Source: Ochrovirga pacifica (GTDB taxonomy: Bacteria > Bacteroidota > Bacteroidia > Flavobacteriales > Flavobacteriaceae). Taken from it: a DNA stretch of 64,000 nucleotides. The notes beneath the pieces are model-generated. The model was not told the DNA's origin, did no database searches, and was given only the letters and a program-made list of their open reading frames with translations. A program made the translations under genes and the position numbers. Shown here one piece after another: positions 39,776-64,000 of the stretch; the first letter of the stretch is position 1; each line of letters opens with the position of its first letter. Location of the stretch: NCBI RefSeq assembly GCF_000220525.1, contig NZ_AFPK01000067.1:1-64000 (forward strand). Direction: 5' to 3'.

Positions 39776-39810
39776 AAACAGAGCTAAGAAGTGTTTCTTA
39801 GCTCTGTTTT
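39776..39810 (-). terminator. Terminator of the AraC-GH2-VOC unit
   Basis: AAAACAGAGCTAAGAA and TTCTTAGCTCTGTTTT pair perfectly around a short loop. On the minus strand it ends in a run of eight T, 17 bp beyond the VOC gene stop. It marks the left border of the polysaccharide utilisation region. Confidence 0.87.
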
Positions 39811-39826
39811 AAATGTTCCTGAAAAA

Positions 39827-40147
39827 TTATTCTTTTATTTCCATAAACTCTACAGGAGAACCATTGTGTGCTATAAACACTACTCGAACTCCTTTTGCAG
39901 GACTAAACGGAGCTACAACAACTTCTTTCCCTTTAATAGCCTCTTCTATATTAGGAACCAAATAAGCTACGTGAGGTATAGAGGTTACCAAAGGATGCCA
40001 AGGACTATCGGCATCAAATTTTACCCACTCTATCTTGTATTCGTCTTTGTCAAATTCTGTAAAGTGAACTTTTCCTGGTTCAAAAAAACCATCCCATTCT
40101 TTATCTTCGGTTGTTGGGATTCCGATGTGGCTAAACTTATATTCCAT
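39827..40147 (-). CDS. Single-domain VOC (glyoxalase-fold) protein
   Basis: A 106-residue cytosolic VOC protein. His7 (FSHIGIP), His59 (SIPHVAYLV) and Glu100 (GSPVEFMEI) occupy the usual metal-ligand positions of the fold, so a divalent-metal enzyme is likely. The chemistry could be isomerisation, lyase or epimerase activity. It follows the GH2 gene by 20 bp and is within its transcript, so a role in handling a sugar or sugar acid from the polysaccharide is reasonable but unproven. There is no signal peptide. Confidence 0.75.
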   Translation of the reverse strand: MEYKFSHIGIPTTEDKEWDGFFEPGKVHFTEFDKDEYKIEWVKFDADSPWHPLVTSIPHVAYLVPNIEEAIKGKEVVVAPFSPAKGVRVVFIAHNGSPVEFMEIKE

Positions 40148-40167
40148 TTTTTTTGGTTTTGATGTAT

Positions 40168-43413
<3,246 letters not shown>

Positions 43414-43458
43414 TTATTGGTTTGTTTTTTGCGATTTTTTATTGGCTATAAAAAGGTC

Positions 43459-44325
43459 TTAATTATTTAAGTACATTTTTTGAAAAGCTTTGGGGTTTAC
43501 CCCTTTTATTTTTTTAAACTGTCTGTTAAAATTGGTTTGCGAATTGTAACCACAACTGTAAGTAACTTCAGAAATAGATAGTTTGTTATCTATTAACAAT
43601 TTACAAGCATGTCCTACTCTTACTTCGTTTAAAAATTGTGAAAAAGTTTTGTGCATTCTTTTCTTAAAAAATCTACAGAAAGGAGAAACACCCAAATGTG
43701 CAATATTGGCAACCTCTTCTAGATGAATTTCTCTGCTTAAATTTTCTAATACGTATTGGTATACCTTTTCTAGCCTTTGTGAATCTTTAACGTATATTTT
43801 TTCAGTGTATCCATTGCTGGCAAATTCTTTAGTATCTTTTGCTGAGGCCAATGCATATAAAATTCCCAACATACATTCTATACTTTTGTAGCCTGTTAAA
43901 GTTAACAGCTTAGACATTTCTCCTGCTACAAAAGTTCTTACCTCTTCGTTTAAAAAAGCAACTCCATTACTCGCTTTGGTCAATAGGTTCTTAATTAGTA
44001 CCATTTCTGTAATTTCAAAAAAATCTTTTCCTAAAAAGTCTTCATTAAAATGTAGTACTATTACTTCTGCCTTTTTATTGATGTCTTTATGATATGCATC
44101 TGAGTTTCTCCATAAATGAGGCATATTACTTCCTATCAAAGCCAATTCTCCAGAAGAAAACTCATGTACATTATCTCCTATAAAACAAGTTCCCTCTCCT
44201 TCTATTATGTAAATCAATTCTAGTTCTTGATGCAAATGCCAAGACTCATCTAGGTAAGGCTTGTTGTTTTGATAAACTGAAAAGCTTTTATTAGAAGGCG
44301 TTATTTTTTTCTGTAAAATCTTCAA
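43459..44325 (-). CDS. AraC-family transcriptional regulator of the galactan locus
   Basis: A cupin-type N-terminal sensor (HLHQELELIYIIEGEGTCFIGDNVHEFSSGELALIGSNMPHLWRN) is followed by a C-terminal AraC double helix-turn-helix (LSREIHLEEVANIAHLGVSPFCRFFKKRMHKTFSQFLNEVRVG and CGYNSQTNFNRQFKKIKGVNPKAFQK). No ATG is available at the front of the frame. I place the start at TTG 44325 (288 residues, KILQKKI...), with the alternative TTG at 44376. It is divergent from the catabolic operon and upstream of the GH2 gene. An AraC-type gene in this position suits a regulator responding to an anhydrogalactose-derived inducer. Confidence 0.87.
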   Translation of the reverse strand: MKILQKKITPSNKSFSVYQNNKPYLDESWHLHQELELIYIIEGEGTCFIGDNVHEFSSGELALIGSNMPHLWRNSDAYHKDINKKAEVIVLHFNEDFLGKDFFEITEMVLIKNLLTKASNGVAFLNEEVRTFVAGEMSKLLTLTGYKSIECMLGILYALASAKDTKEFASNGYTEKIYVKDSQRLEKVYQYVLENLSREIHLEEVANIAHLGVSPFCRFFKKRMHKTFSQFLNEVRVGHACKLLIDNKLSISEVTYSCGYNSQTNFNRQFKKIKGVNPKAFQKMYLNN

Positions 44326-44453
44326 GGTTAAATAATTATTACGTCGTTCAAGTATAAAATTAACACATTTAATCAATATAATACTCCTTATCCTTAAAAA
44401 TTGTCAATAAAATACTTGTTTAGGTATATTGTTGTTAAATAAATGCACAATTA

Positions 44454-44470: not shown

Positions 44471-44488
44471 AACTTAATATACAACTTT

Positions 44489-45514
44489 ATGGATACCTAT
44501 TTGTTTGCAATTATTCTAGTTTTAATTGCCAGTTTATTTCAAGGAAGCTTTGGATTGGGAATGAAATACATAGCTCCTTTAAAATGGGAAGCCTGGTGGA
44601 TTGTTCATGCAACAGTAGCTATGGTTATTTTTCCTTTGTTATGGGCTTTTTTAGTCGTTCCAGACTTATTTAGTATAATAGCACAAGCTCCTAGCAATGA
44701 AATTTTTTCGGGAGCAGCCTTAGGTTTTGGATGGGGAATAGGAGGAATTATGTTTGGAGTCTCTGTTGGATATATAGGAATGTCTTTGACTTATGGAATT
44801 GTAATGGGGCTTTGTTCTATTGCTGGGGCATTAATTCCCATGTTTTTAAAATACAACTCTATAAATAAAGATAGTATTCCTTATATATTATTGGGTTTAA
44901 TTCTGTTAGCTGTTGCCGTTGTTGTGGTAACCATTGCAGGATTAAAAAGAGATAAATTATTAGCTATACAAGGAGCAGAAATAGAAGGAATTAAAAAAGG
45001 GGCTGCCTTTAAAAAAGGATTGATAATTGCTTCGGTCAGCGGAATTTTATCTGCCATGCTTGCTGTAGGGTTTGACAATACCCCAGAAATAGGAAAACTA
45101 GCAGAAAAAGCGGGAGCCTTACAAAGAAACACTGCCTTGGCTCGCTGGGTTGTTGTTTTGGCGGGAGCTTATGTAATGAATTTAGGATATAGTTTGTTCT
45201 TACTCATCAAGAACAATTCATTCAACTCCTTTAAAACACCACAAATGGGAAAAGCACTTAAATGGTCTATCATTGCTGGGCTGCTATGGTTTGCTGCTTT
45301 AGGAACTTACGGACAAGGTGTTGCTCTGATGGGAGAAATAGGAACCATGATTGCCTGGCCTATGATGTTGGGTATTTCTTTAATCATTAGCAATATTTGG
45401 GCTTATCGATCAGGAGAATGGAAAAACGCTACCAAACCTTTTCAGACATTATTACTGGGAATAGGAATTATTATTATCGCAACTTGCGTATTGGCATATT
45501 CTAACACTTTATAA
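44489..45514 (+). CDS. RhaT-family sugar:proton symporter-like permease
   Basis: 341 residues with about ten membrane helices (for example LFAIILVLIASLFQGSFGLGMKYI at the start and TLLLGIGIIIIATCVLAYS at the end). It belongs to the L-rhamnose/proton symporter RhaT group within the DMT superfamily; KYIAPLKWEAWW is a family signature. Rhamnose genes are absent here. It is the first gene of the anhydrogalactose operon, so the substrate is more likely 3,6-anhydrogalactose, galactose or a short oligosaccharide. That is inference from context. A 72-bp gap separates it from the cycloisomerase gene. Confidence 0.82.
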   Translation: MDTYLFAIILVLIASLFQGSFGLGMKYIAPLKWEAWWIVHATVAMVIFPLLWAFLVVPDLFSIIAQAPSNEIFSGAALGFGWGIGGIMFGVSVGYIGMSLTYGIVMGLCSIAGALIPMFLKYNSINKDSIPYILLGLILLAVAVVVVTIAGLKRDKLLAIQGAEIEGIKKGAAFKKGLIIASVSGILSAMLAVGFDNTPEIGKLAEKAGALQRNTALARWVVVLAGAYVMNLGYSLFLLIKNNSFNSFKTPQMGKALKWSIIAGLLWFAALGTYGQGVALMGEIGTMIAWPMMLGISLIISNIWAYRSGEWKNATKPFQTLLLGIGIIIIATCVLAYSNTL

Positions 45515-45586
45515 AACAAAACTAACACAAATAGAGCTTCCTAGGATTTTTTTAATGCAGGTTGCTCCTAACTAATTATAGAATTA

Positions 45587-46747
45587 ATGATGAGGATTAA
45601 AGAAATTACACCTTATGTATTGATTAGTAAATTGGACGAACCTTTTTACTTTTCACAGTGGCAATACGACACTAGAAAGATTTGTTTGGTAAAAATTACC
45701 TTAGAAGACGGAACTTATGGATGGGGAGAAGGGTATGGTCCTGCTGATGTAATTAAAGCAGGTATTGAGTATTTTACTCCTTTTATCAAAGGAAAGTCTG
45801 CACTAGAACACGAAACCATTTGGCAAGAAATGTACTTGCGTTCACTTGACTTTGGCCGTAGTGGTATTTTTCAGGCTGCTGTAAGTGCTATTGATGTTGC
45901 TTTATGGGATTTGAAAGGAAAAATCTTAAACCAACCTGTATCTGTACTTTTAGGAGGTGTAAAAAATCCTGAAATTCATCCCTATGCAACAGGTTTATAT
46001 TTTGAACGCGTAGAAAATCTAGAAAAAAAACTAGTTGATGAGGCTTTGTTGTACAAAAGTCAAGGATTTAAAGCTATAAAAATGAAAGTTGGTTTAGGAA
46101 TTGAGCCCGATACTCATTATGTAAAAGCAGTTAGAGCAGCCATTGGTAATGATATTAAATTAATGATAGATGCCAATCACGCATACTCTTACAAAGAAGC
46201 TTTGGAACTCGCTTTAAAAGTAGAAAAATACAACATTTCGTGGTTTGAAGAACCCGTTTCCCCTGAAGATTATGATGGTTATAAAAAATTACGCTTACGC
46301 ACTTCTATCCCAATAGCAGGTGGAGAGTGCGAGTATTTAAAACATGGTTTTAAGCGTTTGTTTGACAACGATTCTGTAGACATTGCTCAACCCGATATTT
46401 GTGCCACAGGAGGTTTAACAGAAGCTAAAAGAATTGCCTCTTTGGCTCAAACTTATTCTAAAGATGTGGTTCCGCATACTTGGGGAACATGGATTGCCAT
46501 TAGTGCTGCCGTACATTTTGTTGCAAATCTAGACAAAAACCCTGGTAGAATGTATTCTGAAAAACCTGTAATGGAATTAGACAGAACAGAAAATCCGCTA
46601 AGAGATAAAGTAGTAAAACATAGTTTGATTATAGAAAACGGGGTATTGACCGTACCTAAAGTTCCTGGTTTAGGAGTAGACATTAATGAAGAAGCTTTAA
46701 TTAAATACTCCTGTCAAAACAGCAATACAAATCACCTTATAAAATAA
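45587..46747 (+). CDS. Enolase-superfamily sugar-acid cycloisomerase (probably 3,6-anhydrogalactonate cycloisomerase)
   Basis: 386 residues of the mandelate racemase/muconate cycloisomerase group. KMK at residues 165-167 carries the catalytic lysine. The metal ligands are Asp195 (MIDANHAY), Glu221 (WFEEPV) and Glu247 (AGGE), and the His297/Asp270 dyad is in PHTWG and AQPDIC. Known 3,6-anhydrogalactonate cycloisomerases open the anhydro ring to 2-keto-3-deoxygalactonate and are members of this superfamily. Placement between an aldehyde dehydrogenase and a KDGal kinase makes that reaction the best guess. A galactonate dehydratase is the main alternative. Confidence 0.8.
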   Translation: MMRIKEITPYVLISKLDEPFYFSQWQYDTRKICLVKITLEDGTYGWGEGYGPADVIKAGIEYFTPFIKGKSALEHETIWQEMYLRSLDFGRSGIFQAAVSAIDVALWDLKGKILNQPVSVLLGGVKNPEIHPYATGLYFERVENLEKKLVDEALLYKSQGFKAIKMKVGLGIEPDTHYVKAVRAAIGNDIKLMIDANHAYSYKEALELALKVEKYNISWFEEPVSPEDYDGYKKLRLRTSIPIAGGECEYLKHGFKRLFDNDSVDIAQPDICATGGLTEAKRIASLAQTYSKDVVPHTWGTWIAISAAVHFVANLDKNPGRMYSEKPVMELDRTENPLRDKVVKHSLIIENGVLTVPKVPGLGVDINEEALIKYSCQNSNTNHLIK

Positions 46748-46754
46748 TTTATGT

Positions 46755-48197
46755 ATGAGCAATTTACTTTTTGGACATAAAAATTTATACATCAACGGAG
46801 AATTAAAACCCGCTAGCAATAATGGGGTGTTTGATGTGATTTCTCCAGCTACTGAAAAAAGCATAGGAACCATTGCTTGGGCAACCAAACAAGATACCCT
46901 AAAAGCTTTAGAAACCGCTGAACAAGGATTTCATTATTGGTCTCAACTTTCTATTGAAGACCGTAACCAATGGATTCATAAACTACGAAACAAAATAGTT
47001 GAAAACAGCGATTTGTTGCGTGAAGCCATTATGAACGAGATGGGAAAAACATGGGAAGCTTCGGAAGAAGACGTAGAACTTTTAATCAAGTCTTTGGAAT
47101 TTTATGCTGATGAAATACACAATAGAAATCCAGAAGAAATAGCAGATAAAGAAGGCACACACTCTCATAAAATAGTAGCAAAACCATTAGGAGTAGCTGT
47201 GGCATTCTTAGCGTATAACTTTCCATTACTTAACTTAGGATATAAGCTAGGACCCGCTTTAGCAGCAGGCTGTAGTATTGTTTTAAAACCGTCGGAATTC
47301 TCTCCTATTTCGGCTTATATTATAGGAGAAATTGCGAAAGAAATTAATTTTCCTAAAGGAGTAATTACTGTTCTTTGTGGTGATTTAGAAAATGTTGGTA
47401 TTCCATTGTGCGAAAGTACCATTCCGCAACTAATTACCATGATTGGGTCTGCAGGTACAGCTCAAAAATTAATGGAGCAAAGTAGCAAAACTTCTATCAA
47501 ACGTTACAGTATGGAATGTGGTGGTAATGCTCCTTTTATTGTTTGCGAAGATGCTGATCTGGATACTGCCATTAACATTGGATCTATTTTAAAAACTAGC
47601 AACTCTGGACAAATATGTGTGGCTCCTAACCGCTATTTTGTGCATCAATCGGTTTTAGATGCTTTTGTAGCTGGAGTTAAAGCAAAATTTGAAAAAACAA
47701 AAATAGGTTTTGGACGTGATAACAAACCCGACATGGGACCATTGGCTAACAAACAATCCGTAGCTAAGGTAAAAGAAATTGTAAATAGAGCTATTGCACA
47801 AGGTGGAAAATTAATTACAGGAGGTAAAGAAATTGAAGGAGATGGTTATTATTTTGAACCGACCATTATTCTATTTGATAAACCTTATGCAGATATTATG
47901 GAAGAAGAAATTTTTGGTCCTGTAGTAATTGCTGTTCCCTTTACAGACAAAGCAGAGGTACTAAAATTAGCCAATAATGTTGATGCTGGTCTTTCGTCTT
48001 TTGTGTTTTCTAAAAGCAATGAAACCATTCAGTACTTTGCCCAAAATTTAGACTTTGGAGAAATTCAAGTCAACGGAGTTAAATACGATATCTATTTACC
48101 TCATGTGGGGGTTAAAAATGCTGGTGTTAGTATGGACTGTTCTAAATATGCATTAGACGATTATTTATCAAAAAGAAGAATTACCATCAAACTATAA
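46755..48197 (+). CDS. NAD(P)-dependent aldehyde dehydrogenase (probably 3,6-anhydrogalactose dehydrogenase)
   Basis: 480 residues of the succinate-semialdehyde-dehydrogenase-like branch. The oxyanion Asn155 is in LAYNFPLL, the cofactor Lys178 in VLKPSEFSP, the general base Glu254 in SMECGGNAP and the nucleophile Cys288 in NSGQICVAPNRY. Oxidation of 3,6-anhydrogalactose to 3,6-anhydrogalactonate is inferred from context: it follows the cycloisomerase by 7 bp and precedes the KDGal kinase by 3 bp. There is no signal peptide, so it is cytosolic. Confidence 0.82.
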   Translation: MSNLLFGHKNLYINGELKPASNNGVFDVISPATEKSIGTIAWATKQDTLKALETAEQGFHYWSQLSIEDRNQWIHKLRNKIVENSDLLREAIMNEMGKTWEASEEDVELLIKSLEFYADEIHNRNPEEIADKEGTHSHKIVAKPLGVAVAFLAYNFPLLNLGYKLGPALAAGCSIVLKPSEFSPISAYIIGEIAKEINFPKGVITVLCGDLENVGIPLCESTIPQLITMIGSAGTAQKLMEQSSKTSIKRYSMECGGNAPFIVCEDADLDTAINIGSILKTSNSGQICVAPNRYFVHQSVLDAFVAGVKAKFEKTKIGFGRDNKPDMGPLANKQSVAKVKEIVNRAIAQGGKLITGGKEIEGDGYYFEPTIILFDKPYADIMEEEIFGPVVIAVPFTDKAEVLKLANNVDAGLSSFVFSKSNETIQYFAQNLDFGEIQVNGVKYDIYLPHVGVKNAGVSMDCSKYALDDYLSKRRITIKL

Positions 48198-48200
48198 AAG

Positions 48201-49139
48201 ATGAGTACACATCAACAATTTATCAGTTGCGACTGGGGTACATCTAACTTTAGATTGCGACTGATAGATTATCAAACGCTAGAAATTCTAAAAGAACTTA
48301 CTTCTGATGTAGGCGTAAAAAAACTGTATCAAAAGTTTCAGTTAGACACTTCTGCCAACAACCAAACCGATTTTTTTGTTCACTTTTTAAGAGAACAAAT
48401 TAAGTTACTAAACTTAGATTACACACCTACCATTGTTGCTTCTGGAATGGCTACTGCTAGTATTGGTTTGTTAGAGTTGCCCTATGTGGCCATGCCTGTT
48501 AAGTTTAATGGAGACAATTTACTGAGTAAATATGTGCATCAAGCTAATTTAAACATTGTTCTTATTTCAGGAACTAAAACCAAGAATGATGTAATGCGCG
48601 GTGAAGAAATTCAAGCAGTAGGATTGTCTCAGTACATTCCAACCAATCAAAAAGGAGTTTTATTGTTGCCTGGTACTCATAGCAAGCATATTCAATTTAA
48701 TAATGGAGTGTTTACAGACTTTACCACTTTTATGACAGGAGAACTGTTTGATGTGATTCAAAAACAAACCTTACTAGGGAACTCTATTCAAAAATCTGCA
48801 TGGAGCGAGACTTATCAACCTGCTTTTTTAGAAGGAGTTCGCAAAGGATTGAATCATCAACACTTGGCTTCGTTATTTTCTATTAGAGCCAACGATTTAT
48901 TATCCAATGCTAGCAAAGAAGAAAACTTTTACTTTTTATCTGGCTTGTTGATTGGAGGTGAACTTGCTTATCTAAAAAATAAACAAACAGAAGTATACAT
49001 TGCTACCACTGGAATATTACACACTTTGTACAAACTTGCTTTAGATCAAACAGGCTGTAACCTAACCAGTTTTAACGCAGACATGATAGATAAAGCACTA
49101 TTAATAGGTCACAAACAAATTTTAGCATCTTATGTCTAA
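48201..49139 (+). CDS. dgoK: 2-keto-3-deoxy-galactonate kinase
   Basis: 312 residues of the DgoK family, an ASKHA-fold sugar kinase. FISCDWGTSNFRLRLID is the phosphate-1 region. RGEEIQAVGLSQ near residue 134, LLPGTHSKHIQFNNG near 155 and TTFMTGELFDVI near 175 are family hallmarks. It phosphorylates 2-keto-3-deoxy-D-galactonate at C6. Using a galactonate-type kinase and not KdgK points to the D-configured anhydro sugar of carrageenan. The stop overlaps the aldolase start by 8 bp. Confidence 0.88.
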   Translation: MSTHQQFISCDWGTSNFRLRLIDYQTLEILKELTSDVGVKKLYQKFQLDTSANNQTDFFVHFLREQIKLLNLDYTPTIVASGMATASIGLLELPYVAMPVKFNGDNLLSKYVHQANLNIVLISGTKTKNDVMRGEEIQAVGLSQYIPTNQKGVLLLPGTHSKHIQFNNGVFTDFTTFMTGELFDVIQKQTLLGNSIQKSAWSETYQPAFLEGVRKGLNHQHLASLFSIRANDLLSNASKEENFYFLSGLLIGGELAYLKNKQTEVYIATTGILHTLYKLALDQTGCNLTSFNADMIDKALLIGHKQILASYV

Positions 49140-49767: not shown

Positions 49768-49788
49768 ATAAAGTAATTTATGTGTTAT

Positions 49789-49817
49789 AAGAGGCTGTCC
49801 AAAAAGGATAGTCTCTT
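49789..49817. repeat. IS left-end hairpin
   Basis: AAGAGGCTGTCC and GGATAGTCTCTT can pair in 10 of 12 positions (one more as G-T) around AAAAA, followed by a T run. The IS end is therefore also a stem-loop that may stop transcription entering from the aldolase gene. Confidence 0.7.
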
Positions 49818-51489: not shown

Positions 51490-51491
51490 TT
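51450..51491. repeat. IS right-end hairpin
   Basis: AAAAAGAGACTGT and ACAGCCTCTTTTT pair over 12 of 13 positions around an AT-rich loop and end in five T. It mirrors the left end and may terminate the transposase transcript and insulate the downstream VOC gene. Confidence 0.7.
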
Positions 51492-51596
51492 ATACCTACT
51501 GCTTTTACAACGCTTTTCAAAAAAAGCAATTTCTTTAACATTATAGAATGGTAAAAAAAAATTCTGTAATTTATCTTGCAACAAACAAGCTATTTT

Positions 51597-54276: not shown

Positions 54277-55854
54277 TTAGGAGTGTTTGTCTAGTAATTG
54301 TTCAACTTGTTCTTTTATTTTTTTATTGTTGTCTCCTGAAATTTTCATGTAATTTTTTAGTTCTTTAGACAATTTTACAATCACATCAGAATACTTTTTA
54401 TCGTCTATAAAGTTTAATACCTCATCTGGGTCTGCTTCTATATCCAATAACCAAGGTTTTCCTTTACTTTGAACGCTTAATTTGTACCTACTTGTAATAG
54501 CTGCATAGTAACCCAAACGCGAAAAAGTAACATCTTTCCAATTAGCAGGTGCTTTTCCTTGAATTATAGGACTTAAATCTCTACCTGGAACTTTGGGACA
54601 ATCAACATTTAAAAGACTTAAAAAAGTAGGCATCCAGTCTGTATTGTTGGCAGCCAAATTCACTACTTTATTTCTTGGGATCAGTGGATTTTTTCCTTCT
54701 TTACCATGAGCCATTACAAAAGGAATTTTTGCCGATGCTTCGTGAATAGTTCCTTTATTTACTCTTCCATGCTCTCCTAATAAGTCTCCATGATCTGATG
54801 AAAACATTACAATGGTATTTTCTAAAATACCTTCAGTTTCTAATTTGTTTAAAATTCTTCCTACATTTTCATCAACAATCTTAACCATTCCCAAATATTG
54901 CTTGATGGAATTCTTTAATTTTTCCTGATTGTTTGTTTTGTTATCCGGACTTTGCCATTTGGGCATTTTTTCTTTGTTTTGAAAAGATTGGTAATACGTT
55001 TTGGGCAAGTTTACCTGCATGTCTTTGTATTTTACATCGTACGGAGTACGTGCAATATCTGGTGTATGTGGGTCTGGAATACTTACAACATAAAAAAACG
55101 GCTTGTCTTTGTTTTTGCCAATAAACTCTACCGCTCTATCTCCCAAAAAGTCTGTGGTAAATTTTACATTTTTAGATTTGTTATCTTGATACAAAGGCTG
55201 TCCATATTGATCTCTTCCTATCAATGTAGGTTTTTTAGAGGCATTGTAAGGGTTTCCTTCTGCATCCAATCCTTTAAACTTATCGTGTCCTCCATTAAAC
55301 ATATATCGTTTATCCTGAAAACCATACGTATCATCTGGGTGCCCAGTAGGATATGGAGACCACCATTCATCATGATCTTTATTTCCATCGGCTGATCTAC
55401 TTTCGGCCAAATGCCATTTTCCTGCATAGCCTGTAAAGTAGCCTGCTTTAGACAAAACATCAGCTATTGTTGTTACATTAGGTTTTAGATATTTACCGTC
55501 TCCTTTTTTGTTCGAATTGTTAGGGATTCCTAAAGTCATAGGATACATTCCTGTAAACATCGAAGCTCTAGATGCAGTACATACAGCTGCACTACAATAC
55601 ATCCTGTTAAAAAGAATTCCATTTTTTGCCAAAGCATCAATGTTTGGAGTTTCTACAGCAGCTTCTTTTCCCCATTGATAAGCCTGATCTGGCGACAACT
55701 GCTCTCTATAACAACTTAGGGTTCTAAAATTATGTTCATCAGTAATAATCCAAATTACATTTGTTTTTTTTGTTTGTTGAGCAAAACCACTCGTTCCCAT
55801 CAATCCAACAACAGTGCAACACATTAATGTGGTCATCCAATTTTTAATTTTCAT
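54277..55854 (-). CDS. S1-family formylglycine sulfatase
   Basis: From ATG 55854 (525 residues) the signal peptide is MKIKNWMTTLMCCTVVGLMG to GFAQQ; the upstream in-frame ATG at 55893 is less suitable. The formylglycine precursor Cys92 is in the CTASR motif of AAVCTASRASMFTG. The metal-site acid pair is in IITDEHN at the front and SDHGDLLGEHG near residue 360, with HTPDIARTP between. It removes sulfate esters from the galactan. The subfamily (S1_7, S1_19 or other carrageenan-linked groups) needs a database comparison. A formylglycine-generating enzyme is not in the window. It follows the GH82-like gene by 23 bp. Confidence 0.9.
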   Translation of the reverse strand: MKIKNWMTTLMCCTVVGLMGTSGFAQQTKKTNVIWIITDEHNFRTLSCYREQLSPDQAYQWGKEAAVETPNIDALAKNGILFNRMYCSAAVCTASRASMFTGMYPMTLGIPNNSNKKGDGKYLKPNVTTIADVLSKAGYFTGYAGKWHLAESRSADGNKDHDEWWSPYPTGHPDDTYGFQDKRYMFNGGHDKFKGLDAEGNPYNASKKPTLIGRDQYGQPLYQDNKSKNVKFTTDFLGDRAVEFIGKNKDKPFFYVVSIPDPHTPDIARTPYDVKYKDMQVNLPKTYYQSFQNKEKMPKWQSPDNKTNNQEKLKNSIKQYLGMVKIVDENVGRILNKLETEGILENTIVMFSSDHGDLLGEHGRVNKGTIHEASAKIPFVMAHGKEGKNPLIPRNKVVNLAANNTDWMPTFLSLLNVDCPKVPGRDLSPIIQGKAPANWKDVTFSRLGYYAAITSRYKLSVQSKGKPWLLDIEADPDEVLNFIDDKKYSDVIVKLSKELKNYMKISGDNNKKIKEQVEQLLDKHS

Positions 55855-55877
55855 CTGTATATTTATTTTATTTTCTA

Positions 55878-57170
55878 TTACTTCTGTTCGCAATTTTCAA
55901 TAGCCTCACTATCATCTACATACTCATAACCTGCTACAAACCCGTTGGCAATCATTGCTTTCTGATTAAAAACGACAGGATAATTTGCAGTATTTAAAAC
56001 TCCTGCTACAGAAGGGCCATAAAAACTTGTTCCTTCTTGGTCAATGGGAATTGTGCTAATTTGGCCTCTTAGTTCACAAGGCATGTATTTGTAATGTTTG
56101 GACTTTAGTTGAGCTTTGTTTCCAAAGTCTGCGTGTACATTTCTTAGCTCAACGCTTTCAAAGGTTCCATTTATCAATCCTGGAGTTGTATATTTTTTTG
56201 ACACAAATCCATCACCTATTCTTACAGCAAATCCACTACTTTTAGAATAAATATTTTGCAAGTAAACTTTACCACAATGCATTGCATGAGGAGAAATCAT
56301 AGCTGCTGCATTTCCGCTGGTACAAGAAATTTGATCACCATAAATATCAAACACTCCCCCTATTTGTAGGTTGTTCATTTGTTTTTCACCTGTTTCCAAT
56401 CGTAAGGTTACTCCTCCTTCTCCATCAATTTTTTTGAACAATACATTTTGTAACGCTTGTGCTTGCACCAATCCATAGCCGTAGTGTGCCCCCTCTGTAA
56501 CTGCATTTTTTATAACACCGTTTTTAGAAAATTTCCAATCACTATTAAACTCAGAAATTCCAAAAGTAAAAGATGAAAAAACAGTCAATTTATCTAAAAT
56601 ATGAACTCCTGATATTAGAAAATTTTCGGTATAACCAAAGCTAAATACAGCAACATTTCGATTGTCTCCAAACCTTAAATCTACCATAAACTTCTCCGTT
56701 TCAGAATCCGAAACAATACTTATGTTTTCTACTTTATCATTGTGTCTACCTATACTAAATATTTTAAAGTTTCTGGTATCACCTCTTAACGAAGGCCTTA
56801 ATACTGCTTTATGACTGATAACGATATGTACATTTGATTTTAGTTTGACTTCTGCAAAAGAATAATTTCCTTCTGGTATGATAAGTCTACCTCCTCCTAG
56901 TGAGTGAATATCATTAACAGCTATTTGAAGTAAATCGCTATCATCTGTATCAAAAGAATTGTCAACACCGTAATCTTCAACTAGATTTTTGATGACTGCA
57001 TAGGTTGAAGGGGCTTTATAAAAATCAGATTCTACAAATACTCTTTCAGATTCATTTGTAGTTGTTTGTTCTTGTTGTGCCTTTTCCTCTGGTTCAGAAG
57101 TTTCAACGGAATTTTTTGAGCATGCTAAAAAAATACAAGTACTAAAAAGTAGAAGTCCGATAGTTCTCAT
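55878..57170 (-). CDS. GH82-like iota-carrageenase, lipoprotein
   Basis: I start at ATG 57170 (430 residues), which gives a lipoprotein signal with lipobox FLAC (Cys17); the frame continues 30 codons upstream with no signal. A short acidic/Gln linker precedes a parallel beta-helix. Gln236 (GLVQAQ), Glu259 (LRLETG) and His295 (ISPHAMH) have separations of 23 and 36, the same as Gln222, Glu245 and His281 that I recall for Alteromonas iota-carrageenase. The residue matching the catalytic Asp247 is Gly261 here. iota-Carrageenase (endo-beta-1,4 cleavage, surface lipoprotein) is the best call; an inactive or altered GH82 relative or another beta-helix enzyme is possible. It is cotranscribed with the sulfatase and GH110. 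Confidence 0.68.
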   Translation of the reverse strand: MRTIGLLLFSTCIFLACSKNSVETSEPEEKAQQEQTTTNESERVFVESDFYKAPSTYAVIKNLVEDYGVDNSFDTDDSDLLQIAVNDIHSLGGGRLIIPEGNYSFAEVKLKSNVHIVISHKAVLRPSLRGDTRNFKIFSIGRHNDKVENISIVSDSETEKFMVDLRFGDNRNVAVFSFGYTENFLISGVHILDKLTVFSSFTFGISEFNSDWKFSKNGVIKNAVTEGAHYGYGLVQAQALQNVLFKKIDGEGGVTLRLETGEKQMNNLQIGGVFDIYGDQISCTSGNAAAMISPHAMHCGKVYLQNIYSKSSGFAVRIGDGFVSKKYTTPGLINGTFESVELRNVHADFGNKAQLKSKHYKYMPCELRGQISTIPIDQEGTSFYGPSVAGVLNTANYPVVFNQKAMIANGFVAGYEYVDDSEAIENCEQK

Positions 57171-57194
57171 GTTTTTGTTGTTTTTATCAATCAT

Positions 57195-57202
57195 CAAAAC
57201 TA
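57195..57202 (-). promoter_or_regulatory. Possible promoter -7 element of the GH82-sulfatase-GH110 unit
   Basis: The minus strand reads TAGTTTTG, matching TAnnTTTG, 25 bases before the lipoprotein ATG. No TTG at the -33 distance was found. Confidence 0.3.
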
Positions 57203-57355
57203 CAAGGACATCAGAAAAAAGGTGTCTTATGGAATTTATTATTTGTACGCTGGGGTACAATTTTTAATTCTTTCTATCAATTTATTTCCTTTTTTAACTT
57301 CTAACCTCTCAAAATCTACCAGTTATATTCAAATAAAACCAATTTATTTTATGCA

Positions 57356-57393: not shown

Positions 57394-57413
57394 GGTATAA
57401 TTGTTTTTTTTTG

Positions 57414-60400
57414 CTATTGAATAATGATTTCATCTATTCCAACACCTCTAGTTTCTACAGTTTCTATTTTAATAGTATTTGCTCCTCTAGCTAATAAAAT
57501 AGGAACTTTAACTTTGTTCCACGATTTAAAGTGATTTCTGGTATTTCGTAAAAACAATTTTTCGTTTACAACCTTTCCATTTACAATTACTTTTACAAAA
57601 GTTCCTATGGCATTTTTTGCAATACCACTGTATCGTACAAACATGTTTGCAGATCCTGCTCCTCCATCATTTTCATAATACCATTCAACCCCTGCTCCTT
57701 TTACATGCTTTAGTTTTACAAATCCCGTACCTTTGTATTTGCTCCCTTTTTGAGTGATTTCTGCTTGATATAAAGTTGCTTCTTCAGCTTGTTCTCCTGC
57801 TATTTCTATTCCTTTTTCATTCTTGTTCCATGTAAATCCTTCGTCTGCTGCAAAACGCTCTTCTAACACTTGAATAGGTTTTCCATTTAATACCAACAGA
57901 GCTTTTACAGTAGTCCCTAATTCTACCTCAAAACTAGAAGTGTATTGCCTAGATTTTGTTGTTGGTGTATCTCCATTAGTTGTGTAGAAAACCTTAACAT
58001 CAGCCTTTATATTTTGTCCTCTTAAGTTAATGATATCCGTATCTATGCTCACTTTTTTAGAAGTAATCAATCTTTTTTCTCCTAAAATACAAGCAGCTAC
58101 TAAAGATATGTCTCCTTTAGAATCTGTAGACTCTATATAGGCACGTGTCAATCCATAAAATGCTTTTCTGTGATTAGGTCCCACATGTTGCTCCACATCC
58201 ACAGGGCTACCATTGTCTAATGATTTGATTTTACCAGATCCTACCACGTGGAAATAGATTCTATTTTCTCCATAAGGATACATTTCACCTTTGGCATCTT
58301 GGGTTGTTACACGAACCTGAACCAAATCTCCTTCTTTGTCTTCTAAATTTACTCCATCTACAGACAACTCAATTTTCGATGGAGTATCTGCGGTTCTTAC
58401 AATTTGTTCTGCCACCACTTTTCCGTTTTTGTATCCTACTGCTTTTAAAGTTCCTGGCTTCCATTTCACCATCCAATCGCACTGCATATTATCCCAGTTT
58501 TTTCCTGGGATGTCTTTTCCTAAAGAAGTTCCGTTAAAAAACAATTCTACCTCATCGCAATTAGAATATACCCATACAGGAATTTCTGTTCCTGAAGCTA
58601 CTTTTGGATGTGTCCAATGTGGTAAAACATGTACCATAGGTTTGATAGTCCACTGACTTTGATATAGGTAAAACAAATCTTTTTCAAAATTAGCCATGTC
58701 TATCGCTCCTCCCATAAAGGATTTAAAAGGCCATCCTCCTTGGTATTTTGCCTCACCAATATAATCGTAACCTGTCCATCTAAAAGAACCTGCATGGTTA
58801 GGAATGTCTCGTATTTGCTGAATGTTTCTACGTGAGGTCAATCGAACCATTGCGTTGTCGTAACTAGATCTAAAACGTTGTTTTTCGTTAGATCGTTCTG
58901 CTGCATCAATCCAATCGTGAGTAAATACTTCTTTTTGCGTTAGGTCTGGACACTCATAAGGTTTTTGACGTTCACTAGGATATCCATCTCTAAACCAAGT
59001 TTGCGTTCTATAAAAACCTCTAATTTGCCAAGTATGTGTGTTCTCTGTTCCTATAAAAACTTTTCCATCACTCTCTTCTTCTAAATGATCAAAAAATCCT
59101 TTTTTTTCACTGTGTCCATTTACACCAAAAACATCCATATGCTCGGAACCTGAATGCCCTGAAGTAACAGGTCTTGTAGGATCTAAATAGTGACATAATT
59201 CTACCAAATCTTTAGCCACTTCTCCTTTGGTTTCATTCCCCACGCTATAAATAAAAACCGATGGGTGATTTCGATCTCTACGAATCCAATCTGTAACATC
59301 TTTTTGCCACCATTCCTCAAAACTATGCGCTCCATAATCATGTGGTGCTTTTCTTTCCCATCCGTCAAAAATCTCATCCATCACAATCATTCCCATTTCA
59401 TCACACAAATCATAAAAAATTGGGGTTTGCGGGTTGTGAGCAGTACGGATAGCATTGACTCCCATATCTTTTAGTTGCTGAATTCTAAATCGGATAATTT
59501 TGTCAGGAACTGCCGCTCCTAAAGCTCCAGCATCTTGATGATTACACACTCCTTGCAACTTAACATTTTTTCCGTTTAGCCACATTCCCGTTGCAGCTTT
59601 CCATTGAATGTCTCTAAGTCCAAAACGTGTTTTTACCACGTCTACTATCTTGCCTTTTACCATCACTTCTGAAACCAAAGTGTACAAATATGGAGATTCT
59701 GGGCTCCACATTTTCGGATTTTGAATGGTAAAAACTTCCTGTAAAGCTACAATTTGGCTCTCAACCTTTGTTTTTTGTTTATTGGTAACCAGCCTATTTC
59801 CTTTGGCATCCTCTATAGAAGTTATCAAGGTAGTTTTCTGATTTTTTTTATTCTGATACGTTTCTAACTCCGTAGTAATTGTTACCTGATTTTCTTTGGT
59901 TTTTACAAACACTCCGTCTCTTACAATATGTGTTGGATTTTTGACATCCATCCAAACATGTGAGTAAATTCCGCTCCCCGTATACCATCTGGCAGAAGGT
60001 TGCTTGCTGTTATCTACACGAACTGCAAACGTTATAGTTTCTGAATTTTTAACAATCGTACTTATATCATAAGCAAAAGAAATCCATCCATAAGGTCTTT
60101 CTCCCAGCTTGATTCCATTTGCCCAAACAGTACTATTCATAAACACCCCCTCGAAAGCAATCTCTACGTGTTTGTTTTTCCACTCTTTAGGAACATTAAT
60201 TGTTTTACGATACCATCCAATACCTGCGGGCAAATAACCACATTGGTCTCCCATAGGATGTGTTTCTTTATACTCCCCTTCTATACTCCAATCATGAGGC
60301 AAGTTAAGCTGCCTCCAATCGTCATCATGATAATTTACCTTTTCTGCTCCAACATCATCTTTTTGAATAAACTTCCAGCCTTTATCTATATTAATGTGTT

Positions 60401-60458
60401 GTTGTCCGTAAACACATATTGTTAATGCTAGTATTAGTCCGGTTAACCAATTTTTCAT
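57414..60458 (-). CDS. GH2 beta-galactosidase-like enzyme with DUF4982 and C-terminal ligand-binding domains
   Basis: 1014 residues, signal peptide ending VYGQQ. GH2 N-terminal, Ig-like and barrel domains cover about 20-590. The acid/base is Glu409 in YSVGNETKGE; the probable nucleophile is Glu472 in FIGTENTHTW. A DUF4982-like Ig domain with a GH2_C5-type region covers about 610-800. The end, about 875-1014 (GVEWYYENDGGAGSANMFVRYSG ... VGIDEIIIQ), looks like a CBM6/35-type module. This architecture differs from the LacZ-type GH2 at 40168, so the two probably split oligosaccharides by size or sulfation. It follows the FN3 lipoprotein by 18 bp. Confidence 0.88.
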   Translation of the reverse strand: MKNWLTGLILALTICVYGQQHINIDKGWKFIQKDDVGAEKVNYHDDDWRQLNLPHDWSIEGEYKETHPMGDQCGYLPAGIGWYRKTINVPKEWKNKHVEIAFEGVFMNSTVWANGIKLGERPYGWISFAYDISTIVKNSETITFAVRVDNSKQPSARWYTGSGIYSHVWMDVKNPTHIVRDGVFVKTKENQVTITTELETYQNKKNQKTTLITSIEDAKGNRLVTNKQKTKVESQIVALQEVFTIQNPKMWSPESPYLYTLVSEVMVKGKIVDVVKTRFGLRDIQWKAATGMWLNGKNVKLQGVCNHQDAGALGAAVPDKIIRFRIQQLKDMGVNAIRTAHNPQTPIFYDLCDEMGMIVMDEIFDGWERKAPHDYGAHSFEEWWQKDVTDWIRRDRNHPSVFIYSVGNETKGEVAKDLVELCHYLDPTRPVTSGHSGSEHMDVFGVNGHSEKKGFFDHLEEESDGKVFIGTENTHTWQIRGFYRTQTWFRDGYPSERQKPYECPDLTQKEVFTHDWIDAAERSNEKQRFRSSYDNAMVRLTSRRNIQQIRDIPNHAGSFRWTGYDYIGEAKYQGGWPFKSFMGGAIDMANFEKDLFYLYQSQWTIKPMVHVLPHWTHPKVASGTEIPVWVYSNCDEVELFFNGTSLGKDIPGKNWDNMQCDWMVKWKPGTLKAVGYKNGKVVAEQIVRTADTPSKIELSVDGVNLEDKEGDLVQVRVTTQDAKGEMYPYGENRIYFHVVGSGKIKSLDNGSPVDVEQHVGPNHRKAFYGLTRAYIESTDSKGDISLVAACILGEKRLITSKKVSIDTDIINLRGQNIKADVKVFYTTNGDTPTTKSRQYTSSFEVELGTTVKALLVLNGKPIQVLEERFAADEGFTWNKNEKGIEIAGEQAEEATLYQAEITQKGSKYKGTGFVKLKHVKGAGVEWYYENDGGAGSANMFVRYSGIAKNAIGTFVKVIVNGKVVNEKLFLRNTRNHFKSWNKVKVPILLARGANTIKIETVETRGVGIDEIIIQ

Positions 60459-60476
60459 ATTAAAATTTCTATCTAT

Positions 60477-61148
60477 TTATTGAACATTAAAACTCCAGAT
60501 TGTACTTAAGGCCATTCCTCCATTATTGTCTTTAGCGATGATACGCCAGTAATAGGTATTTGCTTCCAAACTGGTTGTAAATTTACTTGCTGACTGATTT
60601 TCAGAAACCAACTCTAATTCTTCAGAATCGGTACCTAAAAACACATCATAAACTAGAATATCATTTACATCTTTATCTACACAAGACCATGATAGGCTTA
60701 ATGAACCATCGGAAAGTACTTGATTAAGTTGTGGGCTAGTAAGTGTAGGTGTTTGTGGCAAATGATTGGTAACTGCATCTCCTTGCGTATAAAACTGAAA
60801 CACTGATGAATATTCACTTTCACTGGTTTTACCAATTGCTTTTACTCGCCAATAATAAGTGCTTGCTTTTTGTAACGACAACTGTATTTTATTTGTTGCT
60901 ATTGATGCTTGGCTGTCTACAGTTTGTGTAAATTTTTTGTCTGTAGCTAGTTCTATCTCATACGTTACAGCTTGGTTGCTTTTGCTCCACTCAAACACAA
61001 TTTCTTCTGCCTTTAAACATATCTGTTGGTGCTTAGGTTCTAACAACACTGGTCTCTCTATATTGTCTACAATTTCTTCTTCTGTTTTGCTTTTAGAACA
61101 AGAAACCAATAGTATTATACAAAGTGTATACACTCCTGTTTTTATCAT
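60477..61148 (-). CDS. FN3-repeat lipoprotein
   Basis: 223 residues with lipobox LLVSC (Cys17), so anchored in the outer membrane and perhaps surface exposed. Two fibronectin type III repeats are visible: about 33-125 (PVLLEPKHQQICLKAEEIVFEWSKSN ... STYYWRVKAIGKTSESEYSSVFQFYT) and about 135-223 (PTLTSPQLNQVLSDGSLSLSWSCVDKD ... NTYYWRIIAKDNNGGMALSTIWSFNVQ). No catalytic domain is present. The start overlaps the stop of the GH-A enzyme by 4 bp (ATGA). A glycan-binding or enzyme-docking role is an inference. Confidence 0.78.
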   Translation of the reverse strand: MIKTGVYTLCIILLVSCSKSKTEEEIVDNIERPVLLEPKHQQICLKAEEIVFEWSKSNQAVTYEIELATDKKFTQTVDSQASIATNKIQLSLQKASTYYWRVKAIGKTSESEYSSVFQFYTQGDAVTNHLPQTPTLTSPQLNQVLSDGSLSLSWSCVDKDVNDILVYDVFLGTDSEELELVSENQSASKFTTSLEANTYYWRIIAKDNNGGMALSTIWSFNVQ

Positions 61149-64000
61149 TTTTTTATCACTTTAGCCATTACTGATTTATTCCCGCGTAGTTTTACTAAAT
61201 ATATTCCACTTTTTACTGTAGATAGATCTACATGAACTCTTCCATCAACCTGTTGTGTATAGCTACTCTTTTTTAATAATTGCGACTGCATGTCATACAC
61301 CTCTACTTTTATCTCCTTTGCTTCGTCATTCACTAAAATCGAAAACAAGCTTGAAGTTGGATTAGGATACGCAAAAGTTAAACTGCTTAAACGCTCTACA
61401 ATACTCCCTTCGCACTCCTTAGAAGTTGCTAACTCTACCACATCACCTGGGCTTGTTTGCAATGTGAATCTTTTTTCTGAGGTATTTAATACCTCTTTTT
61501 TATTGATACGAACTTTATATGGAGCTGTTCCTTGTTTTACATCTACAAGCAAAGTTGTATTGGTTCCAGAAGTAAATACTTCTATTTTTTCACTCTTTGG
61601 AATTACAAACTCGTAACATTGCTCTTTATCAAAATCTGTATTCTCTATGCAAATACTATGATTTCCGAGGGCTATATCTTGTAGAGAAACAGATTGAGTA
61701 AACAATTGTTCTTCTCCATTAAATATCACTTTATAATTCCCTAATTTTTCAGCTGTAATTTCTAATTCTCCATTATGAGTATCTGGACAAGTTTCACCAA
61801 TGGTTTTTAAGGTATATTTTGTTTGTTTTTCTCCCAAGCTCTTCACTTCTAAAAGTAAAACTTGCTCTGGTTCCATTTCAAAACTACCTTCATATGTTTT
61901 ACCGTTTAACAAATCAACATAGGCTACGTTTGTTGTTGCCCCCCTAAAACCAACAGATACATTCGCTTTTGTTTTTCCTATATTCACAATGCTGATGATG
62001 TGCTTGTTATCTAAAGTTTCTATGGCTTTCCAATGACAACCTTTTGCTCCTATACTGTTGGTTTCTTCTAGTGTAAGAGCAGGAAATCTATTTTTAGTCT
62101 GTGCTATCTGCAGTGCTTTTTCTTTTATGGCTGCTATAGAAGCCAATTGATAAATTGTTCCTGTTCCAGCAGTTAATTGCAGCAAATGACTCCTTCCATA
62201 TTCATCTTTTTTAAGACTTGTAGCATCCGTAATTACAATTCCTCCTCCATTTAAATAATCTTGCAATGCTTCCAATTCAGCTTGGGTTACAAATTCGGTA
62301 TCATATATTAAAATCATATCCCAATCTGTATGATCCTGATTTAAAATAATATCTTTACTTGCAAACCCTATAGACAATCCCTCAAAGTAAAGCGATTCGT
62401 ACAAATCAAAAATACGATCCATATGATCTTTCTTGTTAATAGCGGTGGTTTGTGTATCGTAAATGCGGATGGATTTTCGCAAATTTTGTATCTGATTGAT
62501 TTCTTCGGCATAGGCATTTATATCCATCATGGTTGCCGTTACCTCATTAATAATTCTGGGTTGTTGATTGTTAGAACCTGCATAACCATTTCCTGATCCA
62601 TCTCTAATAGATCCGTCTTCCCTACGTGACCAAAACCAACACTGATCTACATCCAAACCATGCAACCTAGACAACCAATACACCATTCTTGCATATGAAG
62701 GTTTTTGATACAAATCTCTAGATTTAACTGTTGATAAGAAATGAGTCTCGGAATTATACATGATTTTGTTTGGGCTTACACTGGTAAAAAAATCGTAAGA
62801 CATGGCCATTTCTCTCCATTCAAAATTGTAACGGTCTTCCCAAGCTTCTTTCCCTCCCCACATGTAATTGTTATGAGCCCCAGCATCGTTCCCAATAATA
62901 TCACTCTGACGAGTCAAGGTCTCCATATCCAGTCCGTGATCTCTACCATTGTTAGACCATAAGTTAGGCATTACTTTAATGTGAGTTTTGGCTTGTGGAT
63001 CGTGTGCTTTTACTTCGCTTTGTAAAAACGCAAACCATTCGTTAATACGGTCCATGTTAAAACGTTGCCAGTCGTACCACATAGGAGTTCCTTGTAAATT
63101 TATTTCGATGGGAATATCTATTGTTACATTGTTAAAACCAGAAAAATCACTCCCCCACAAATGGTTTAAGTTTGTAATACTCTTATGTTTTTTAGACAAC
63201 CAAGTTCTAAACTTTTCTTTAGTGTATTCTGATACAGGCCCCGAAGCCCAAACATCTTTATCTCCATCTTTAGTGGTGATAAAATGAGGCTCGTTCGTTA
63301 ACATGTACCCTAGCTGCGTGTATTTTTTACCAGTCATTTTTGGTAAGGTTTCCTTTAACAAGAATTTCCACATTTGCCTTGCTCCTGGATTGTCTACATC
63401 ATAAGCAGTATAAGTATCCTCTCGCATTTTAAAGCCAGGTCCATAAGCAGTTTCTGTCCAATCTGGCACATTAGAATGGTTTAAAAAAACACTTCCAAAT
63501 GTTCCCGAAGCTTTGGTATTCAATTCGTTAATCATCCAGTTTTTAACACCTCCAGAAGCACTGTTTAGATGTGTGGGAGATAAGTAATACCCATCTTTAG
63601 CACCAAAATATTCATTCAATTCTGGAATATAGGGTTTCCAAGTATAATCTGTTAAAAAAACCGGACGTCCTTTATGACGTAATTCATTTCCTTGCAAACT
63701 AATTTTTGACCAATCAATTGCTGGAATTTCTTTACGAATAATTTCTCCAGAAATTACTTTTTGCAAGGTTGCAATGGCATCATCTAACATTAAAATAATT
63801 TCAGAACGCTCAAAATTAGGCAAAGCATCGGCCATTGCTGTCGCATTGTTTTTGTACCTTGCTACTTTCTGAAAATATTCCGTATTGATTGCTTTATTAT
63901 TTTCGTCCCAATTAGCGTACTTTAAAAATACCTCTGCAACACGAATACTCATTTTTTCTTTGGTTGCATCTAGCCCTTTTTCCTCTGCCTGTGCTATCCA
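61145..64000 (-). CDS. Clan GH-A glycoside hydrolase with T9SS sorting domain (GH42/GH167-like), 5' end cut by the window
   Basis: The frame is still open at base 64000, so the N-terminus is missing; over 950 residues are visible. The acid/base Glu is in MLTNEPHF (NEP, codon near 63290) and the nucleophile in MYNSETHF (codon near 62745), the layout of clan GH-A. A Rossmann-like domain (WDMILIYDTEFVTQAELEALQDYLNGGGIVITDA) resembles the trimerisation domain of GH42. The C-terminal about 75 residues (FAYPNPTSSLFSILV ... VKSGIYLVKLRGNKSVMAKVIKK) are a type A T9SS signal, so it is secreted or held at the surface. A beta-galactosidase on neocarrageenan oligosaccharides (GH42/GH167-type) is likely; GH50-like agarase is a weaker option. 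Confidence 0.75.
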   Translation of the reverse strand, partial: WIAQAEEKGLDATKEKMSIRVAEVFLKYANWDENNKAINTEYFQKVARYKNNATAMADALPNFERSEIILMLDDAIATLQKVISGEIIRKEIPAIDWSKISLQGNELRHKGRPVFLTDYTWKPYIPELNEYFGAKDGYYLSPTHLNSASGGVKNWMINELNTKASGTFGSVFLNHSNVPDWTETAYGPGFKMREDTYTAYDVDNPGARQMWKFLLKETLPKMTGKKYTQLGYMLTNEPHFITTKDGDKDVWASGPVSEYTKEKFRTWLSKKHKSITNLNHLWGSDFSGFNNVTIDIPIEINLQGTPMWYDWQRFNMDRINEWFAFLQSEVKAHDPQAKTHIKVMPNLWSNNGRDHGLDMETLTRQSDIIGNDAGAHNNYMWGGKEAWEDRYNFEWREMAMSYDFFTSVSPNKIMYNSETHFLSTVKSRDLYQKPSYARMVYWLSRLHGLDVDQCWFWSRREDGSIRDGSGNGYAGSNNQQPRIINEVTATMMDINAYAEEINQIQNLRKSIRIYDTQTTAINKKDHMDRIFDLYESLYFEGLSIGFASKDIILNQDHTDWDMILIYDTEFVTQAELEALQDYLNGGGIVITDATSLKKDEYGRSHLLQLTAGTGTIYQLASIAAIKEKALQIAQTKNRFPALTLEETNSIGAKGCHWKAIETLDNKHIISIVNIGKTKANVSVGFRGATTNVAYVDLLNGKTYEGSFEMEPEQVLLLEVKSLGEKQTKYTLKTIGETCPDTHNGELEITAEKLGNYKVIFNGEEQLFTQSVSLQDIALGNHSICIENTDFDKEQCYEFVIPKSEKIEVFTSGTNTTLLVDVKQGTAPYKVRINKKEVLNTSEKRFTLQTSPGDVVELATSKECEGSIVERLSSLTFAYPNPTSSLFSILVNDEAKEIKVEVYDMQSQLLKKSSYTQQVDGRVHVDLSTVKSGIYLVKLRGNKSVMAKVIKK

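Follow-up and report, generated by a model that had tools for sequence, protein, structure and literature searches.

A carrageenan utilisation region of Ochrovirga pacifica in which an anhydro-sugar module and a hydrolase block are probably joined

Introduction

Carrageenan utilisation systems described in Zobellia, Pseudoalteromonas, Bacteroides and a flavobacterium designated S85 provide the background for the region analysed here, which begins at position 39,776 of a stretch of 64,000 nucleotides of Ochrovirga pacifica DNA (the window; positions 1 to 64,000 of contig NZ_AFPK01000067.1, called C11 below). The assembly, GCF_000220525.1, amounts to 3.38 Mb in 77 contigs, and the locus continues for 10.7 kb past the window and ends with the contig, at C11:74669. 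We consider it very probable that the region serves carrageenan utilisation in a Wenyingzhuangia-like flavobacterium and joins two modules: an anhydro-sugar (dau) operon with its regulator, and a block of glycoside hydrolases (GH) and S1 sulfatases.

Comparison with described systems

The carrageenan regulon of Zobellia galactanivorans comprises ZGAL_3145-3159 and distal genes; PMC5698469 reports assays of its four dau enzymes on the D-anhydrogalactose route and in vivo deletion of its regulator and dehydrogenase genes. The region studied here shares with it the gene order symporter-dauB-dauA-dauC-dauD, an AraC regulator, a locus without SusC/D, further carrageenan genes elsewhere in the genome, and the S1_30 and GH2 families, both represented among the induced genes described in that paper. 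Unlike Z. galactanivorans, it has no gene at the ZGAL_3158 position, its regulator is divergent, its predicted anhydrogalactosidases are encoded elsewhere, and the dau genes are followed by a lambda-type hydrolase block. In Z. barbeyronii (locus L007) a relative of the regulator lies on the dau strand, whereas in the window it is divergent.

In Flavobacteriaceae bacterium S85, according to PMC6262041, dauABCD and a GH82 gene are close to each other (AFPK_670040-670057), and a further polysaccharide utilisation locus (PUL), which its gene numbering places at a probable contig start, has two GH150 genes next to GH2 and GH110 (AFPK_440002-440015). This two-PUL layout matches the layouts of C11 and of a second contig of our genome, C34. 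The window genome may therefore be that of S85 or of a near relative; if it is S85, the parts of the system have been published before. The S85 PULs are treated apart, and the passages of PMC6262041 devoted to them do not mention the joined reading; here, the two contigs are probably adjacent, to judge from comparison with Wenyingzhuangia heitensis, and C11 has a GH150B-type gene in addition.

The lambda-carrageenan PUL of Pseudoalteromonas (P. distincta U2A and a P. carrageenovora plasmid; PMC12549532, PMC6262041) shares the GH150A and GH150B types, GH110, GH2 and S1 sulfatases with O. pacifica, and in P. carrageenovora the dau genes are on the same plasmid. Unlike in Pseudoalteromonas, the genes of O. 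pacifica are on two contigs, not known as a plasmid, the block includes GH167 and GH82, and the dau genes are only 31-48% identical to those of Pseudoalteromonas.

The carrageenan PUL of the bovine Bacteroides xylanisolvens BxMAG (PMC13168452) combines GH82, GH150, GH167 and sulfatases in one locus, as here, and also has GH16_17 enzymes, which are absent from the window locus. Its main text mentions neither 'galactonate' nor 'anhydro', so no dau operon is described there. The gene combination is already in print (PMC6262041, PMC13168452), and the system belongs to a known type; the preliminary description of this DNA, made from its letters alone, had suggested that the combination may define a variant locus suited to hybrid carrageenans, which is not supported as stated.

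Two modules that probably meet in one region: REARRANGEMENT

The argument for two modules is built from what can be read off the sequences, namely gene content, gene order, orthology, key residues and a changed location. Module 1 (39.8-49.8 kb) would comprise the AraC regulator, the symporter, the dau enzymes and a GH2 beta-galactosidase (GH2a); module 2 (52.3-74.7 kb, the contig end) would be one end of a lambda/hybrid carrageenan block, with an insertion element marking the seam between them.

Relatives of module 1 were collected by a pattern-based scan for dauB in a genome collection of 84,980 species. The best 80 of 91 matches represent 78 distinct loci, of which 30 are termed close (dauB identity at least 69.5%), 35 belong to a second clade and 13 are distant. 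The best dauB matches are in Wenyingzhuangia sp. 2_MG-2023 (92%), W. heitensis (91%) and W. aestuarii (90%), and by such sequence comparisons the genome groups with Wenyingzhuangia, a member of the Flavobacteriaceae. Four of the close loci (L002-L005) display the row VOC1-GH2a-AraC-symporter-dauBACD (VOC1 is a small protein discussed below), with orthologues of GH2a adjoining dau at 57-76% identity and of the regulator at 79-90%. There the row is followed by a gene of 208-211 codons (recR by Pfam in L002) and by a 487-codon gene, which we traced in all four genomes. The window genome has the recR-side row at C12:35460-40462, without the dau cluster, and the left-hand dau neighbours of the relatives match its small contig C26, which also bears GH127, GH16 and S1 genes. 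On C11 the dau cluster adjoins a radical-SAM gene, orthologues of which lie on non-dau contigs in three Wenyingzhuangia genomes.

Module 2 has its own counterpart in W. heitensis, where a carrageenan block at C1:1.479-1.567 Mb corresponds to the C34 and C11 block of O. pacifica. Read along C34 from 28.9 kb to 1 and then along C11 from 74.6 to 54.3 kb, 15 of 16 genes of the former and eight of the 12 block genes of the latter have reciprocal best hits there in the same order, at identities of 51-86%; the S1 sulfatase (80%) and the second GH2 enzyme, GH2b (72%), are among them. The dau operon of W. heitensis (L003) is on a contig other than this block. Within 10 kb of dau, GH82 occurs in none of the 30 close loci and GH110 in one. 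No GH167 or GH150 was seen near these loci either, some of which end at contig ends, and this absence says little because the two genes are 15 and 21 kb from dauB in the window itself. We also surveyed 397 genomes drawn from the larger group of the window's family, its own genome included: the GH150 middle domain occurs in 14 of them (weakly in G250), and among these 14 a close-type dauB is confined to G000 and G392, on another contig in the latter. On these grounds the dau module and the hydrolase block are very likely separate in relatives and joined in this strain.

The insertion element starts 11 bases past the dauD stop codon and is bounded by imperfect terminal inverted repeats of 28 bp (49779-49806 and 51471-51498, 82% complementary). 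It is present in a single copy in the window genome and was not found in the three Wenyingzhuangia genomes. From its domain content we take it to be IS1182-like, and it may have caused the join. Base composition gives no clear sign of foreign DNA across the seam, with G+C of 33-38% in 2-kb steps. The weakly glyoxalase-like protein encoded just beyond the element (51576-52274) has no relative in the other dau loci compared.

FAD-dependent oxidoreductases (PF12831) are encoded inside two carrageenan blocks of the genome, at C34:9519-11486 and C26:5618-7528; in the W. heitensis block each matches a separate gene, at 86 and 64% identity, respectively.

Hydrolases and sulfatases of the block

GH82, GH110 and GH167 each have solved carrageenan-linked relatives. 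The protein that the preliminary description had called GH82-like is a true member of the family, to judge from its homology to 1h80 and 3lmw over the beta-helix (best stretch, residues 72-354), and the more cautious label was dropped. In alignments it keeps the GYG motif, the Gln, the Arg, the catalytic Glu and His (H281); Gly-Tyr, Gln, Arg, the catalytic Glu and His are reported as strictly or highly conserved in GH82 (PMC3669377). A lipobox-like N-terminus was seen by eye after an internal Met. The hydrolase previously assigned to clan GH-A, with a type IX secretion system (T9SS) tail, is GH167, which matches 9whd over residues 9-752 (E 1e-240).

The GH110 enzyme of the window keeps the catalytic Asp, at the position of GH110B D344, and both of its GLAA-B domains score above the Pfam cut-off. 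At the site of GH110A R460/GH110B E480 it has a Glu, as in GH110B, so it probably prefers an unsulfated terminal end; the GH110B partner residue Asp518 is not conserved. The GH110 encoded on C34 is of the GH110A type (54% identity) with an Arg at the R460 site; this Arg makes room for a 6-sulfate (PMC12549532).

The enzyme encoded at C11:67240-69936 shares 49% identity with GH150B, the second GH150 of P. carrageenovora, and 26% with CglA; for the two GH150 enzymes encoded on C34, identity to CglA is 44 and 47%. In P. distincta, as described in PMC12549532, types A and B both act on lambda-carrageenan and neither acts on kappa- or iota-carrageenan; type B also releases incompletely sulfated products. 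The divergent (B) type was found in eight of the 14 GH150 genomes, all eight of which also carry the classical type. Scores against PF25290 fall into two classes, of about 190-215 and 510-690 bits, the lower comprising nine matches in eight genomes, C11:67615-68580 among them.

Of the sulfatases, that at 54277-55893 has S1_30A (9ihk) as its best solved relative, and in Zobellia a gene of the S1_30 group is induced by carrageenan (PMC5698469). For it and for those at C11:64109-65539 and C11:73232-74623, S1_8 or S1_15 entries score far below the best matches, and C11:65722-67230 has no S1_8 or S1_15 match within E 1e-30. The four S1 sulfatases beyond the window carry the signature C-x-P-S-R (three) or CAPAR (one). 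The whole assembly gives 62 sulfatase-family matches, a few of which are pieces of one gene.

We infer the substrates and the co-regulation of these genes; the proposed order of events is as follows. GH82 and GH150B would cut the chains at beta-1,4 bonds and the S1 sulfatases would trim sulfates, after which GH110, GH167 and GH2 would in turn remove alpha-galactose, neocarrabiose and beta-galactose. Free anhydrogalactose would be supplied by GH127 enzymes encoded on other contigs, to be oxidised by DauA, ring-opened by DauB, phosphorylated by DauC and cleaved by DauD into pyruvate and glyceraldehyde-3-phosphate.

The alternative that survives best is a dedicated hybrid-carrageenan locus, as the preliminary description had proposed, in which GH110 and GH82 would form one pathway on iota/nu-lambda mixed chains and dau would consume the anhydro-sugar of those same chains. 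In its favour, the GH82 and GH150B genes are 10 kb apart in the window genome, GH150B-type genes have a GH82 relative nearby in W. heitensis (41% identity), G089 (12 kb, 44%), G327 (about 5 kb, 37%) and G387 (about 7 kb, 56%), and GH167 releases beta-neocarrabiose from hybrid beta/kappa oligosaccharides (PMC6923384). Against it, the G387 reading of GH82 contains two in-frame stops, in G007 the nearest GH82 and the GH150B-type gene are ~600 kb apart, and a search at E 1e-20 gave no GH82 match in G392, G338 or G250. The GH110 enzymes of Pseudoalteromonas work in the lambda-carrageenan cascade (PMC12549532), and the block itself contains a GH150B-type gene. Among the 14 GH150 genomes dau adjoins the hydrolase block in the window genome only; G392 has it on another contig, as does W. 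heitensis. Two modules fit these data better, and we regard the dedicated hybrid locus as unlikely.

The anhydro-sugar operon

The operon (44489-49767, plus strand) has the gene order of ZGAL_3157-3156-3155-3154-3153 of Z. galactanivorans, so that the gene-order comparison with a characterised carrageenan locus favours the route that had been proposed for it, and the succession of oxidation, ring opening, phosphorylation and cleavage agrees with that of the assayed Zobellia genes. Among the close loci, dauA (at least 60% identity), dauC and dauD are each found in 28 of 30, an AraC relative in 26 and the symporter in 23. The top solved relative of DauB is 5olc (657 bits), followed by 4ggb at 312 bits, whereas 5xd7, the structure of a 3,6-anhydro-L-galactonate cycloisomerase, reaches 160.5 bits. 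The catalytic residues K167, D195, E221, E247 and H297, which comprise the metal ligands, the base and the acid, are kept, as are D88 and W299 of the pocket; the numbering is that of AtGCI (K166, D194, E220, E246, H296, D87, W298) with a constant offset of 1. Catalytic residues, and pocket residues shared with AtGCI, are listed for the solved DauB in PMC5698469. The sequence comparisons support a pathway for 3,6-anhydro-D-galactose, in the D form and derived from carrageenan. The earlier argument for this form and substrate, made from the DgoK-type kinase, is sound given the colinearity of the operon and the retained catalytic residues.

It is very improbable that the five genes instead form a D-galactonate (De Ley-Doudoroff) pathway, in which the enolase-family protein would dehydrate galactonate ahead of DgoK and DgoA. 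These last two enzymes are common to both routes, and arabinonate and galactonate dehydratase are the best NCBIfam matches of the enolase-family protein; these are sub-threshold, with equivalog scores far below the cut-off, and the match to the assayed cycloisomerase 5olc is far above that to any dehydratase. An aldehyde dehydrogenase would be superfluous for galactonate, and relatives of the regulator and symporter are found at dau loci. We therefore rejected this possibility. Agar loci also contain GH2 and S1 enzymes, but a role in agar or porphyran use was rejected too and is the least credible of all, since no GH16 or other agarase family was found among the scanned C11 genes, GH82, GH150, GH167 and the dau genes are carrageenan markers, and the cycloisomerase scores favour the D-form over the L-form enzyme.

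The second dauB-like clade (35 loci: L029-L061, L064, L069) shows dauB identities of 53-60%. An aldehyde dehydrogenase of at least 40% identity accompanies it in 29 of the 35 loci (at least 60% in two), dauC in five and dauD in four, and a GH82 relative is nearby in four Tenacibaculum loci (L035, L042, L045, L046). This clade may serve another aldonic acid or anhydro-sugar.

Weighing the two-module reading

Several observations weigh against our interpretation. In W. heitensis, no reciprocal best hit was obtained for GH110, GH167 or the fn3 lipoprotein, and that of GH82, at 41% identity, is out of order; as four of the 12 C11 block genes lack an in-order counterpart, the hydrolases of the window are the least conserved part of the block. 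The C34 and C11 parts, together ~51 kb, are probably neighbours across an assembly gap, an adjacency deduced from comparison, and no overlap is shared by the ends of the two contigs. The GH82 protein has a Gly at the position of Asp247, a candidate catalytic residue of A. fortis CgiA (PMC4919138). Only three of the 14 GH82 proteins aligned have an Asp there, and in P. carrageenovora the residue is Gly as well; consequently Asp247 does not define the family, and the Gly need not mean a loss of function, as had first been considered. The window GH110 is ~31-33% identical to both characterised lambda-carrageenan GH110 types, and the sulfatase at C11:70132-71658 scores about the same with S1_8A and S1_8B (117 and 115 bits) as with a mucin sulfatase, its best match having 120.5 bits.

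The two remaining points concern completeness: neither GH127/GH129 nor SusC/D was found among the scanned C11 genes from 39.8 kb to the contig end, so the region is not self-sufficient. SusC/D is likewise absent from ten scanned C34 genes; a C34 gene of 1069 codons, considered as SusC, was rejected as encoding a TMEM260-like protein. GH127 genes are present on C26, C41 and C52, and a match of much lower score lies on C4; those on C26 and C41 adjoin a GH16 gene. GH129 was discarded as the anhydrogalactosidase, the genome having one weak match (C76, 26.5 bits, 95 positions). By analogy with Zobellia, the region looks like part of a dispersed carrageenan regulon and not like a complete PUL. Taken as a whole, the preliminary description stands for substrate and pathway and was overstated in its claim of a new hybrid-specific variant.

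Layout of the locus

Every gene listed in that description was recovered: the AraC regulator, two GH2 enzymes, GH110, the GH82-like protein, the S1 sulfatase, the T9SS hydrolase and the five-gene operon (Table 1). The two GH2 enzymes are indeed dissimilar, one of LacZ type and the other of DUF4982/C5 type. Four further genes of the region are absent from that description: a complete transposase gene, the weakly glyoxalase-like reading frame, the fn3 lipoprotein gene and VOC1. Beyond the window lie four S1 sulfatase genes, one GH150 gene and one gene for a weakly melibiase-like protein.

Table 1. Features of the carrageenan region on contig C11
Feature	Coordinates	Strand	Evidence
VOC1, conserved 106-aa VOC-fold protein	39827..40147	-	fold match of model; in 13 of 30 close dau loci
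GH2a beta-galactosidase, LacZ type	40168..43404	-	Pfam GH2 N/C/LacZ_4/Bgal_small_N
AraC-family regulator, divergent from dau operon	43459..44376	-	Pfam HTH_18 + cupin
RhaT/DMT-type sugar/H+ symporter, ZGAL_3157 position	44489..45514	+	PF06379
dauB, predicted 3,6-anhydro-D-galactonate cycloisomerase	45587..46747	+	5olc (ZGAL_3156) 657 bits; key residues
dauA, predicted 3,6-anhydro-D-galactose dehydrogenase (aldehyde dehydrogenase)	46755..48197	+	PF00171
dauC, DgoK-type kinase	48201..49139	+	PF05035
dauD, predicted 2-keto-3-deoxy-6-phosphogalactonate (KDPGal) aldolase	49132..49767	+	PF01081
Insertion element at seam	49779..51498	+	transposase 49850-51391; Pfam DDE_Tnp_1_6/DUF772
Weakly glyoxalase-like 232-aa protein	51576..52274	+	PF00903 E 0.008, below cut-off
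GH110 alpha-1,3-galactosidase	52352..54169	-	PF23763/PF23764; 9beh (GH110A) 287 bits
S1 sulfatase, nearest S1_30	54277..55893	-	9ihk ('Sulfatase_S1_30A') 286 bits; CTASR
GH82 (iota-carrageenase family) lipoprotein	55878..57260	-	1h80, 3lmw E 1.2e-60
GH2b: GH2 with DUF4982, C5, Fn3-associated domains	57414..60458	-	domain scan
fn3/Ig-type lipoprotein	60477..61148	-	domain scan
GH167 exo-beta-galactosidase with T9SS tail	61145..64000, gene start C11:64099	-	9whd 805, 6ptm 716 bits; PF18962
GH150B-type enzyme, outside window	C11:67240-69936		PF25292, PF25290, PF25291 (three CGLA domains) above Pfam cut-off

VOC1 and implications

VOC1 is encoded in 13 of the 30 close dau loci (L002-L006, L010, L011, L013, L014, L016, L020, L065, L068), with identities of 60-87%, whereas none of the 48 remaining loci of the 78 encodes it; one copy is interrupted by an early stop, and a fragment is present at one further locus. 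The protein has no Pfam match up to E 0.1. Its predicted fold (predicted local distance difference test score, pLDDT, 78.6; residues 19-34 poorly modelled) retrieves VOC-fold proteins from the PDB, with a best E of 1e-4 and three matches at E of 0.001 or below. Judged from this model VOC1 is a VOC-fold protein, nothing more specific. A literature search linking carrageenan use to glyoxalase or VOC proteins returned no relevant paper.

A more far-reaching proposal brings these elements together: the carrageenan-sensing AraC regulator would also govern the hydrolase block, the GH150B-linked GH82, with its Gly at the Asp247 position, would cut mixed iota/lambda chains and not regular iota-carrageenan, and VOC1 would perform or speed an unrecognised step of anhydro-D-galactose metabolism. 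We hold this combination to be doubtful.

Two targets are singled out by the present analysis, the group of GH82 enzymes encoded near GH150B and the small VOC-fold protein of the dau loci. More generally, the probable joining of the two modules in O. pacifica suggests that the carrageenan toolkit of flavobacteria is modular, with a monosaccharide pathway and lambda/hybrid hydrolases that would be separable and could be joined by rearrangement.

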